NCBI GenBank assembly: GCA_944380515.1
Contig: CALWHT010000028.1
Coordinates: 1-64,000, forward strand
Reading direction: 5' to 3'
Length of the DNA stretch: 64,000 bases
Source of the DNA: an uncultured Roseburia sp.
GTDB lineage: Bacteria > Bacillota > Clostridia > Lachnospirales > Lachnospiraceae
Position numbers and translations under genes: made by a program. This document shows, in pieces, positions 28,743-57,505 of this stretch (the stretch's first letter is position 1; every line of letters starts with the position of its first letter). Below the pieces are notes generated by a model that had not been told where the DNA came from, searched no databases, and saw only the letters and a program-made list of their open reading frames with translations.

Positions 28743-30284
28743 ATGAGTAAAAAACCTACGGTATTAATGATTTTAGACGGCTTCGGCTTAAATGAGAGAA
28801 GCGAGGGAAACGCGGTTGCACAGGCAAATACACCCGTGATTGACAGTCTGATGCGGGATTATCCGTTTGTGAAGGGCTATGCGAGCGGGCTTGCGGTTGG
28901 TCTCCCGGACGGGCAGATGGGAAATTCCGAGGTTGGCCATTTAAATATGGGCGCGGGAAGAATCGTATATCAGGAGCTGACCAGAATTACCAAGGAGATT
29001 GAGGACGGAGAGTTCTTTCACAACAAAGCGCTGCTGGACGGCATCGCGAATGTGAAGGAGCATCATTCCGATCTGCATTTATACGGACTTCTCTCCGACG
29101 GCGGCGTACACAGCCACAATACGCATCTTTACGGGCTTTTGGAGCTTGCAAAAAGAGAGGGCGTGGAAAATGTTTACGTGCACTGCTTCCTTGACGGACG
29201 TGATACGGCGCCTACCTCGGGCAAGGGCTTTATCGAGGAGCTGGAAGCAAAGATGAAGGAAATCGGGGTCGGAAAGATTGCCACCATTTCCGGACGTTAT
29301 TATGTGATGGACCGTGATAACCGGTGGGATCGTGTAGAGAAGGCATACAACGTCATGACAAAGGGCGAGGGAGAAACGGCTGAGAGCGCAGTCGAAGCAA
29401 TGGAGGCTTCTTACGCAAAGGACGTGACGGATGAGTTTTTCGTTCCGACGGCGATTACGGAGAACGGCAGCCCGGTTGCTACCATCAAAGACAATGATAC
29501 GGTAATTTTCTTTAATTTCCGTCCGGATCGTGCAAGAGAAATCACGAGAGCATTCTGCATGGATGAATTTGACGGCTTTGACAGAGGAGCAAGAAAGAAA
29601 GTTACGTATATCTGCTTTACAGAGTATGATGTGACCATTCCGAATAAGGAAGTGGCTTTCCAGAAGGTAGAATTGAAAAATACCTTTGGAGAATATCTGG
29701 CAGCGCATGGAAAGACCCAGGCAAGAATCGCGGAGACCGAGAAATACGCGCATGTAACCTTTTTCTTTAACGGCGGCGTGGAGGAGCCGAATCCGGGCGA
29801 GGACCGTATTCTGGTAAAATCCCCGAAGGTTGCAACCTATGATCTGCAGCCGCAGATGAGCGCACCGGAGGTATGCGATAAGCTTTGTGAGGCAATCCGT
29901 TCCGAAAAATATGATGTGATTATCATTAATTTCGCGAATCCGGATATGGTCGGTCATACCGGTATTCTGGAAGCTGCGGTCAAAGCGGTGGAAACGGTGG
30001 ATTCCTGTGTGGGACGTGCCGTTGAGGCATTAAAGGAAGTGGACGGACAGATGTTTTTATGCGCGGACCACGGAAATGCGGAGCAGCTGGTAGATTACGA
30101 GACAGGGGCGCCGTTTACGGCACATACCACAAATCCGGTACCGTTTATCCTGATTAATGCGGATCCGGCGTACACGCTGAAGGAGGGCGGATGCCTTGCG
30201 GACATCATTCCGACCCTGATTGAGCTTATGGGTATGGAGCAGCCGGCAGAAATGACAGGAAAATCCCTGCTGATAAAAAAATAA
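28743..30284 (+). CDS. gpmI: 2,3-bisphosphoglycerate-independent phosphoglycerate mutase
   Basis: 513 residues from the ATG at 28743 (AGGAGAG upstream; an open extension to 28587 overlaps the previous gene and is not used). Alkaline-phosphatase fold: metal-binding MILDGFG at the start, the phosphoserine motif GNSEVGHLNMGAG, FFNFRPDRAREI and the late CADHGNAEQ metal site. It converts 3- to 2-phosphoglycerate with Mn2+. It completes the lower-glycolysis block, though separated from tpiA by two envelope genes. Confidence 0.97.
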   Translation: MSKKPTVLMILDGFGLNERSEGNAVAQANTPVIDSLMRDYPFVKGYASGLAVGLPDGQMGNSEVGHLNMGAGRIVYQELTRITKEIEDGEFFHNKALLDGIANVKEHHSDLHLYGLLSDGGVHSHNTHLYGLLELAKREGVENVYVHCFLDGRDTAPTSGKGFIEELEAKMKEIGVGKIATISGRYYVMDRDNRWDRVEKAYNVMTKGEGETAESAVEAMEASYAKDVTDEFFVPTAITENGSPVATIKDNDTVIFFNFRPDRAREITRAFCMDEFDGFDRGARKKVTYICFTEYDVTIPNKEVAFQKVELKNTFGEYLAAHGKTQARIAETEKYAHVTFFFNGGVEEPNPGEDRILVKSPKVATYDLQPQMSAPEVCDKLCEAIRSEKYDVIIINFANPDMVGHTGILEAAVKAVETVDSCVGRAVEALKEVDGQMFLCADHGNAEQLVDYETGAPFTAHTTNPVPFILINADPAYTLKEGGCLADIIPTLIELMGMEQPAEMTGKSLLIKK

Positions 30285-30290
30285 AAACAG

Positions 30291-30327
30291 ATGCGAAGGG
30301 AGACCACAAAAAGGTCTCCTTTTGCAT
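30291..30327 (+). terminator. Terminator of gpmI
   Basis: 15-bp stem with one G-U pair (30291-30305 with 30313-30327). The second arm includes CCTTTT, giving the T-rich tail. Confidence 0.75.
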
Positions 30328-30330
30328 GGA

Positions 30331-30480
30331 AAACAAAAAGCAGTCCCGGGGGAGGAACTGCTTTTTGCCGTTGGGCAGCGGTAAAACCGCTGCAATGAAA
30401 GGGATTTTAAACTGTATGGAAGCCGCAAGGCTTCCGATGAGTGGGATTTACATAATATCACTCATGATTCTTTCGAATCT
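30331..30480 (-). ncRNA. Candidate small RNA with five hairpins and C-rich single-stranded parts
   Basis: Read on the minus strand this 150-nt stretch has a near-consensus promoter, a run of perfect hairpins and an intrinsic terminator. Hairpins, 5' to 3' on the RNA: 30479-30466 (5 bp, GAAA loop), 30465-30437 (7 bp), 30435-30418 (GGAAGCC/GGCTTCC, UUGC loop), 30393-30375 (8 bp, UUU loop) and the terminator 30366-30335 (10 bp, then CUUUUUGUUUU). Unpaired segments contain AAAUCCC, AAAAUCCCUUUCAUU and CCUCCCCC, which could pair with purine-rich ribosome sites. No coding frame fits. It does not resemble 6S, SRP, tmRNA or RNase P RNA to my eye. Confidence 0.6.
30335..30366. terminator. Bidirectional terminator; ends the candidate small RNA on the minus strand
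   Basis: Perfect 10-bp stem AAAAAGCAGT (30335-30344) with ACTGCTTTTT (30357-30366). On the minus strand the T tract continues as TTTTTGTTTT. Confidence 0.85.
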
Positions 30481-30486
30481 GTAGCT

Positions 30487-30515
30487 ATTATATAACCACT
30501 ACTATTGTAAGTCAA
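30487..30515 (-). promoter_or_regulatory. Promoter of the candidate small RNA
   Basis: On the minus strand: TTGACT (30515-30510), 17-bp spacer, TATAAT (30492-30487). Expected start near 30480. Confidence 0.75.
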
Positions 30516-30650
30516 GCTTCTTCTGGAAAAATTAGAAGTCGTGGACAATTTAATAAGAATTGCTAATAAATAAAATAAAAATATACAAAAATACTAATAA
30601 AAAACTTTGATTTTTCTATGTGTCAATTTCTGGGGCAGAGGGCAAAATCA

Positions 30651-30680
30651 TTGACTTTCCAAAAGGCGATGTATTATAAT
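30651..30680 (+). promoter_or_regulatory. purC promoter
   Basis: TTGACT (30651-30656), 18-bp spacer, TATAAT (30675-30680). The AT-rich 30520-30650 stretch upstream shows nothing else. Confidence 0.75.
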
Positions 30681-30742: not shown

Positions 30743-31621
30743 ATGAATGAAAAAGTATTTCAGCCAATCAAAGAAGGAAAGGTTCGTGAGGTATACGATA
30801 TCGGAGAAAGTCTGATTATCGTGGCAACAGACAGAATATCTGCTTTTGACCATATATTAAAAAATAAGATTACGGATAAGGGTGCCATTTTGACTCAGAT
30901 GTCTAAGTTCTGGTTTGATTTTACGAAGGACATTGTGCCGAATCATATGATTTCCGTAGACGTAAAAGATATGCCGGAATTTTTCCGAAACGAGAGATTC
31001 GACGGCAACAGTATGATGTGCAAGAAGCTCACGATGCTTCCGATTGAGTGTATTGTACGCGGTTATATTACGGGCAGCGGCTGGGCAAGCTATCAGGAAA
31101 ACGGTACGGTATGCGGCATCCGTCTTCCGGAGGGCCTGGTGGAATCCGATAAGCTGCCGGAGCCGATTTACACACCGAGCACCAAAGCGGATATCGGTCT
31201 GCATGACGAGAATATCTCCTTTGAAAAGAGCGTGGAAATTTTAAAGGAGCTCTATCCGGAAAAAGGCGAGGAGTATGCAGAGAAAATTAAGGAATACACG
31301 ATTGCTTTGTATAAAAAATGTGCGGAGTATGCGCTTGGCAGGGGAATTATCATCGCGGACACGAAGTTTGAGTTTGGACTTGACGAGAACGGCAATGTCG
31401 TTTTGGGTGATGAGATGCTTACGCCGGACAGCTCCAGATTCTGGCCGCTTGAGGGCTACGAGGCAGGAAAGGGACAGCCTTCCTTTGACAAGCAGTTTGT
31501 AAGGGATTGGCTGAAGGAAAATCCCGACAGCGATTATTTACTGCCGGACGATGTGATTGAGAAAACGATTGATAAGTATAAAGAGGCATTTGAATTGCTG
31601 ACAGGCAAAAAATTTGCATAG
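30743..31621 (+). CDS. purC: SAICAR synthetase (phosphoribosylaminoimidazole-succinocarboxamide synthase)
   Basis: 292 residues from the ATG at 30743 (AGAGAGGA upstream). GKVREVYDIGE at the N-terminus, ATDRISAFDHI, and the IECIVRGYITGSGW and KFEFGLDENG signatures are all present. It joins aspartate to CAIR in purine synthesis. First gene of purC-purF-purB. The order skips other pur genes, which must lie elsewhere. Confidence 0.97.
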   Translation: MNEKVFQPIKEGKVREVYDIGESLIIVATDRISAFDHILKNKITDKGAILTQMSKFWFDFTKDIVPNHMISVDVKDMPEFFRNERFDGNSMMCKKLTMLPIECIVRGYITGSGWASYQENGTVCGIRLPEGLVESDKLPEPIYTPSTKADIGLHDENISFEKSVEILKELYPEKGEEYAEKIKEYTIALYKKCAEYALGRGIIIADTKFEFGLDENGNVVLGDEMLTPDSSRFWPLEGYEAGKGQPSFDKQFVRDWLKENPDSDYLLPDDVIEKTIDKYKEAFELLTGKKFA

Positions 31622-52817: not shown

Positions 52818-53104
52818 GGCAAAGAAAAGAAAACACAGGAAAAGGCATGGAGCGGAGAGAGTAGGAAATCAGAGAGCTGTCAGAGAGAGGCTGCCGTCGG
52901 CTGAAAGCGGCCTTCAGAGGGAGATTTTTGAAGTGCATCCGGGAGCCTGCCGGGTGAAGGCAGTATGCGCGTTTTTGCAGCAGTAAGTACCCCGGTACGT
53001 CTGGCATACGTTACATGCATTGAGGGAAAATCGAAGGATTTTTAATAGAGTGGAACCGCGGATTATTTCGTCTCTGGCAGAGACGGGTAGTCCGCTTTTC
53101 ATTT
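52818..53104 (+). promoter_or_regulatory. T-box riboswitch, cysteine-specific
   Basis: The T-box core GAGTGGAACCGCGG (53047-53060) is followed by a terminator hairpin (GCGGATTA with TAGTCCGC, inner GTCTCT/AGAGAC) ending in TTTT at about 53097-53101. The stem I region holds TGC, a Cys codon, at 52934-52936 in an expected specifier-loop setting (GAAG-TGC-ATCC). Uncharged tRNA-Cys would bind and let transcription run into cysE-cysS. Confidence 0.9.
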
Positions 53105-57334: not shown

Positions 57335-57361
57335 AAAGGAACTGAAACTAAATAATATCGC

Positions 57362-57505
57362 AGAGGGACGGCGATTGCAGCTTTTGCATGAGCGGTTGAG
57401 AAGGTTAAAACCTGACTCTTTGAACCTGTCAGTTAATACTGTCGTAGGGAGCGAAATAAGGATGAATAACGAAAGCCTTGTCGTGTCTGCGGCGGGGCTT
57501 TTTCC
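57362..57505 (+). promoter_or_regulatory. TPP (thiamine pyrophosphate) riboswitch with terminator
   Basis: The 3' half is textbook: CTCTTTGAACCTGTCAGTTAATACTGTCGTAGGGAG (within 57415-57451), preceded by GGTTGAGAAGG (the CTGAGA region, slightly changed) and a variable extra stem. A terminator hairpin (AAAGCC at about 57472 with GGCTTT at about 57496, then TTTTT) forms the expression platform. High TPP should end transcription before thiC. Confidence 0.92.

Follow-up and report, generated by a model that had tools for sequence, protein, structure and literature searches.

Introduction

What, if anything, is encoded on the minus strand between gpmI and purC in an uncultured Roseburia sp. is the question raised by positions 30331-30515 of a 64,000-nucleotide (nt) stretch of its DNA (the window). 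A first-pass annotation had proposed a free-standing small RNA in this gap, and comparison with other Roseburia genomes supports that proposal: place, promoter and terminator recur in relatives, a homology model built without the window finds the locus, base pairs covary within one group of relatives (type A below), a putative seed and the terminator loop are constrained, and no reading frame is shared across the types of the element. The explanation that we regard as probable, with appreciable doubt remaining, is a trans-acting small RNA of Roseburia that pairs through C-rich seeds with the ribosome-binding sites of messenger RNAs (mRNAs) and blocks their translation without Hfq. A sigma-A-type promoter belonging to the RNA itself would drive minus-strand transcription into the gap that follows gpmI. 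The C-rich segments left exposed (UCCC or CUCCUCUUU within a loop or linker, together with UCCCCC of the terminator loop) would pair with the Shine-Dalgarno regions of mRNAs, and this pairing would block translation of the targets independently of Hfq.

Among the bacteria of the gut, Roseburia is one of the major producers of butyrate. In the open-access literature, as far as searched (titles and the beginnings of abstracts), neither an earlier description of this RNA nor any described small RNA from Roseburia was met. With a well-delimited candidate whose seeds can be tested, the action of small RNAs becomes directly addressable in a clade in which no Hfq gene was detected.

Promoter, fold and placement of the predicted RNA

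The flanking genes were identified by Pfam domains as gpmI (iPGM_N and Metalloenzyme; plus strand, stop at 30284) and purC (SAICAR_synt; start at 30743), in agreement with the glycolysis and purine neighbours named at first pass. The features of the gap are the following.

30487-30515, minus strand: promoter TTGACT-17-TATAAT, matching 11 of 12 consensus positions
Within this promoter, minus strand: spacer, read as TAC-AATA-GTA in the window and as the palindrome GTAC-TTTA-GTAC in relatives
30335-30480, minus strand: proposed small RNA of about 150 nt, placed by the fold and by homologues
30466-30479, minus strand: hairpin 1 of the fold, with a GAAA tetraloop
30437-30465, minus strand: hairpin 2, whose loop holds UAAAUCC(C) in the position of the type A seed AUAUAACUCCUC
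30418-30435, minus strand: hairpin 3 of the fold, with a UUGC loop
30394-30417, minus strand: linker AUACAGUUUAAAAUCCCUUUCAUU, unpaired in the fold, candidate seed
30375-30393, minus strand: hairpin 4 of the fold
30335-30366, minus strand: terminator hairpin, with the loop UCCCCC at 30348-30353
30298-30319, plus strand: separate hairpin just past gpmI, seen on reading, likely gpmI's own terminator
30651-30680, plus strand: promoter-like site of purC, divergent from the RNA promoter

The putative RNA would start about 7 nt past the -10 element. A loose promoter scan gave no enrichment (4 observed against 4.5 expected). The fold of the 152-nt sequence has a minimum free energy of -61.7 kcal/mol, where shuffles average -30.3 (z = -8.54; none of 200 shuffles as low), and with the terminator removed z is still -6.44. 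Five non-overlapping perfect Watson-Crick hairpins are present, compared with a shuffle mean of 1.4, and a single shuffle in 1000 reaches five. The promoter, the five hairpins and the terminator described at first pass are thereby confirmed; the description of the hairpins as perfect holds for these five Watson-Crick helices and has to be relaxed for the full terminator stem, which includes one G-U wobble. The plus strand folds comparably (z = -7.0), so folding cannot fix the strand, which is assigned by the promoter. Since purC has the promoter-like site of its own, the RNA is not a purC leader, nor is it a leader on the gpmI side, because a minus-strand RNA heads antisense to gpmI.

Unpaired C-rich segments, to which the first-pass annotation had drawn attention, do occur in the folds. 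In the window they comprise a half-paired UCCC bordering the loop of hairpin 2, UCCCUUUC in the linker and UCCCCC in the terminator loop; the last is all of CCUCCCCC that falls in that loop.

Distribution among Roseburia and beyond

The survey covered 62 Roseburia genomes, 30 of which pass a cut on completeness and contamination. gpmI was detected in 58 of 60 genomes of the genus and purC in 51 of 60. When a reading of the regions upstream of purC (30 loci scanned, 13 of them displayed), the promoter pattern (found with at most 3 mismatches in 8 of 62 genomes) and the model search described below are combined, 11 of the 62 genomes carry the RNA, each time between gpmI and purC. The carriers fall into three types: type W, comprising the window's kind (G000 and G006); type A (G020, G077, G035, G070, G073 and G082); and a shorter type B (G028, G021 and G023). 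Common to them are the place, the promoter (degenerate in G023), an AUAUAA(A/C)UCC-like motif (AUGUAAAUCC in the window) and the terminator. The number of hairpins differs, folded type A members showing about four and type B about three, and the five-hairpin layout is thus not conserved. One match was found in the window's genome and one in each of the eight type A and W genomes. Genomes without the RNA still have gpmI and purC.

Two gaps illustrate what may stand in place of the element. Upstream of purC in G004 (L041) the palindrome and the -10 are kept, the -35 is broken and the body of the RNA is gone; from its sequence, this locus appears to be a relic of the RNA gene. In G078 (L051) the gpmI-purC gap holds, where relatives have the RNA, an open frame that by eye resembles a small PilZ-type protein. 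On a tree of 30 gpmI genes, in which the G006 row has a broken frame, the carriers are scattered within a clade of 24, a pattern that neither establishes nor excludes a single old origin followed by losses.

Outside the genus, a family scan matched 3 of 397 genomes, namely the window's own, G293 (expectation value, E, 0.0018) and G263; it scored seven candidates per genome, and distant members may be missed. On inspection the G293 match was judged a look-alike and the G263 match a chance one, and L006 (in G012), L083 and L085 were likewise taken as chance on reading. G293, which belongs to another genus, does carry at about 1501-1641 of L084 (minus strand) a candidate RNA in its own right, which has ACUCCCCC, UUCCCCG and UCUCCCCGG as C-rich segments close to hairpins and to a terminator. 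In a named genome collection the promoter pattern was found in 14 stretches, seven being this RNA in Roseburia and seven unrelated on reading; G035 was not among these matches. As seen in the scans, the distribution would thus be that of the genus Roseburia, and the conservation that the first pass proposed to look for was found in some members of this genus and not in Lachnospiraceae at large.

Known RNA families and coding potential

No Rfam family matched the RNA locus at its gathering score, in keeping with the statement that no known RNA class explains it. Eight matches with E up to 10 were all far under their own cut-offs, and RsaE was absent among them; we take Rfam to contain both an RsaE model and an LhrC model.

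That the locus is a gene for a small protein is most improbable. Frames do overlap it: in the window there are one of 52 amino acids (aa; antisense) and one of 134 aa on the minus strand that runs into gpmI antisense, and type W as a whole offers frames of 52 aa (antisense) and at least 45 aa (sense). The window frames recur only in the near-identical sister G006; the short antisense frames of G077, G020 and G035 begin with the same residues and end differently, and a 15-aa frame is common to G028 and G021. Coding was rejected, in line with the earlier annotation, since no frame is common to the types and the gaps of the alignment do not come in threes. The locus presents what is generally looked for in a trans-acting base-pairing small RNA, that is, its own promoter, an intrinsic terminator and no common frame. 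A conserved unpaired seed complementary to ribosome-binding sites is present in type A, and type W has one sister only.

Homology model, constraint and covariation

A covariance model (R1) was derived from type A alone, using its six sequences, with the window excluded. Searched genus-wide, it recovers the window (46.6 bits, E 3.5e-5), G006 (E 3.0e-5) and all six type A loci; a further match in G023 (E 0.07) was taken as chance. Searched over 16 sources, it also finds the type B loci at 30.4, 27.7 and 23.9 bits (E 0.0014, 0.0045 and 0.023), followed by four weaker matches (E 0.27-0.67), each either on the opposite strand or within the relic of G004.

The tests of constraint and covariation apply to type A, and the identities are means over 15 pairs of type A genomes. 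Against a baseline of 0.48 at the fourfold sites of gpmI, identity is 0.57 in the 5' part of the RNA, 0.99 in the AUAUAACUCCUC-UUUAUCUGCC block, 1.00 in the matching stem arm and 0.45 in the loop of that hairpin. Further along, the middle hairpin reaches 0.57, the linker 0.34 and the terminator stem 0.86, and the terminator loop UCCCCC is again at 1.00. AUAUAACUCCUC is an anti-Shine-Dalgarno sequence. The loop UCCCCC is identical across types W and A, while the type A stem that bears it covaries.

In the type A structure 94.9% of cells are paired, compared with 36.0-52.2% in slid controls; this structure was predicted from the tested alignment itself, which favours it. Both sides have changed in seven pairs, three in the middle hairpin and four in the terminator; shuffles give 3.1, and 3 of 500 reach as many. 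The covariation score was likewise reached by 3 of 500 shuffles. Neither arm of the first stem varies, and this stem is hence uninformative. Conservation of the hairpins with compensating changes, as anticipated at first pass, is therefore found for the middle hairpin and the terminator of type A and does not extend to the five-hairpin layout of the window.

These figures bear on an explanation that we hold to be unlikely, in which the locus is a mere terminator region between convergent or tandem genes, ending stray transcripts, and no regulatory RNA is made. In G020 and G035 the terminal hairpin stands directly past the gpmI stop with no earlier hairpin, and probably serves gpmI too; the hairpin is nearly symmetric, and R1 gives weak matches on the opposite strand. 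Set against this, a conserved promoter points into the region, a 22-nt unpaired and stem block is kept at 99-100% together with an invariant loop, neither of which termination needs, and gpmI of the window has its own hairpin. A plain twin-terminator region is accordingly not what was found, the promoter and the seed block being conserved beyond the terminators.

Candidate seeds and targets

Unpaired in the folds are CUCCUCUUU in type A, UCCUCUU and UCCCCC in type B, and UCCCUUUC in the window, each of them complementary to Shine-Dalgarno sequences. Exact complementarity to GATAAAGAGGAGTTATATG, which makes up a whole start site with Shine-Dalgarno sequence, spacer and AUG, is found for the type A seed CAUAUAACUCCUCUUUAUC in four genomes (G035, G020, G077 and G070). 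The seed of G073 is one base off, and in G082 nothing matched even with 3 mismatches allowed; the anti-AUG part is therefore not fixed. Exact 11-nt matches stand at the starts of two genes, one in both G020 and G077, which is presumably a transporter permease, and another in G020, which we take to resemble a cellobiose phosphorylase. Overall, 18 of the 23 exact 11-mer sites lie away from the RNA gene, and 7 of these 18 lie just upstream of a frame of at least 60 aa, a count that has no control for start-site bias; one orthologous pair occurs, between G020 and G077. Hfq (PF17209) was not found in 13 of 13 Roseburia genomes, the window's included, in a search whose control detected it in 5 of 14 well-known genomes.

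A number of results weigh against an mRNA-pairing small RNA at this locus. The searches left 51 of the 62 Roseburia genomes without the RNA, a number of them incomplete, and hairpins 1-4 of the window were found elsewhere only in one sister, G006, at 97% identity. R1 scores the window mostly through the terminator hairpin, loop included, the body being much diverged, and type B falls below the pass in the genus-wide scan. Further pair types in type A are within the shuffles (452 of 500 as high). Unpaired C-tracts are no more numerous than in shuffles that keep dinucleotide composition, either in the window (147 of 300 as high) or in any of the 11 members (37-157 of 300); unpaired C content is likewise near the shuffles (window, 107 of 300 as high; the lowest is G035, with 11), and unusual C-richness of the loops was rejected as statistical evidence since composition explains the C-tracts. 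The full seed complement has 11 non-self matches in six genomes against 20 for a reversed control, and the exact 11-mer 23 against 44. A search with the window linker gave two non-self matches with 3 mismatches and the control 2. Target prediction with the C-rich seeds of the window, suggested at first pass, yielded nothing above chance among 52 start regions of the window picked by a simple rule: 39, 134 and 66 of 300 seeds shuffled by single letters scored as low. Nor are the neighbouring genes top targets: with the three seeds, purC takes ranks 28, 10 and 51 among the 52 regions, and gpmI ranks 18, 29 and 20.

Those ranks also speak against a cis-acting antisense RNA that controls the 3' end of gpmI or the adjacent purC, which we think quite improbable. 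The RNA does lie opposite the region past gpmI, and it and purC have divergent promoters; on the other hand, the window RNA ends before gpmI and RNA-less genomes keep both genes. Also not a likely explanation is a structured RNA whose partner would be a protein, or a second RNA that it sponges, mRNA start sites being left alone. The invariance of the first stem in both arms exceeds the needs of seed pairing, and no target stood above chance, both as such an RNA would have it; the unpaired stretch that does not vary nonetheless complements a Shine-Dalgarno sequence exactly, and a C-rich motif of the same sort recurs in all three types although their bodies differ.

Promoter palindrome and surroundings

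The palindrome between -35 and -10 might, on slender grounds, be a repressor site. Allowing at most 1 mismatch, it occurs in 5 of 7 genomes only at this promoter (reversed control, 23 matches), in G020 at this promoter and one other site, and in G082 not at all. A shared operator regulon was rejected, and as the palindrome sites form no visible regulon the regulator is speculative. A more ambitious version of the favoured reading seems doubtful to us: a Roseburia-specific riboregulator that would mimic the anti-Shine-Dalgarno tail of the ribosome and, under a dedicated palindrome-binding repressor, silence carbohydrate-use mRNAs in butyrate producers without Hfq.

Upstream of the purC promoter, at about 30540-30630 (plus strand), lies an A/T-rich element of repeated ACTAAT/TTATAAG-like units, recognisable by eye in the majority of 15 purC upstream regions aligned from Roseburia, whether or not these contain the RNA; it is a possible operator. 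Elsewhere the window holds an ordinary T-box leader (52839-53078, plus strand) and a TPP riboswitch (57352-57467, plus strand).

Comparison with known small RNAs

The first-pass annotation had likened the locus to RsaE/RoxS of Staphylococcus and Bacillus, which are described as having several C-rich regions able to pair with Shine-Dalgarno sequences (PMC4409812). Multiple accessible C-rich regions are indeed shared with them, though no more than composition gives; the absence of an Rfam match, and a different sequence, hairpins and neighbours, set the locus apart. LhrC of Listeria carries three CU-rich motifs that are redundant with one another, located in a stem-loop, in a single-stranded stretch and in the terminator structure, and it acts on a Shine-Dalgarno region, with Hfq dispensable for lapB (PMC4132741). 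The UCCC motifs of the window are similarly distributed over the hairpin 2 loop, the linker and the terminator loop. The locus differs from LhrC in having no Rfam match, one copy per genome against five, and another promoter and host. With the iron-responsive C-rich RNAs FsrA, whose UCCC is named in the same report (PMC4132741), and IsrR, the idea of a C-rich seed appears to be shared, again with no Rfam match. By this analogy LhrC appears closer in layout than RsaE/RoxS, to which the likeness would be functional only. Being neither RsaE nor LhrC, the predicted RNA is best filed with the C-rich, Shine-Dalgarno-binding small RNAs of Gram-positive bacteria.
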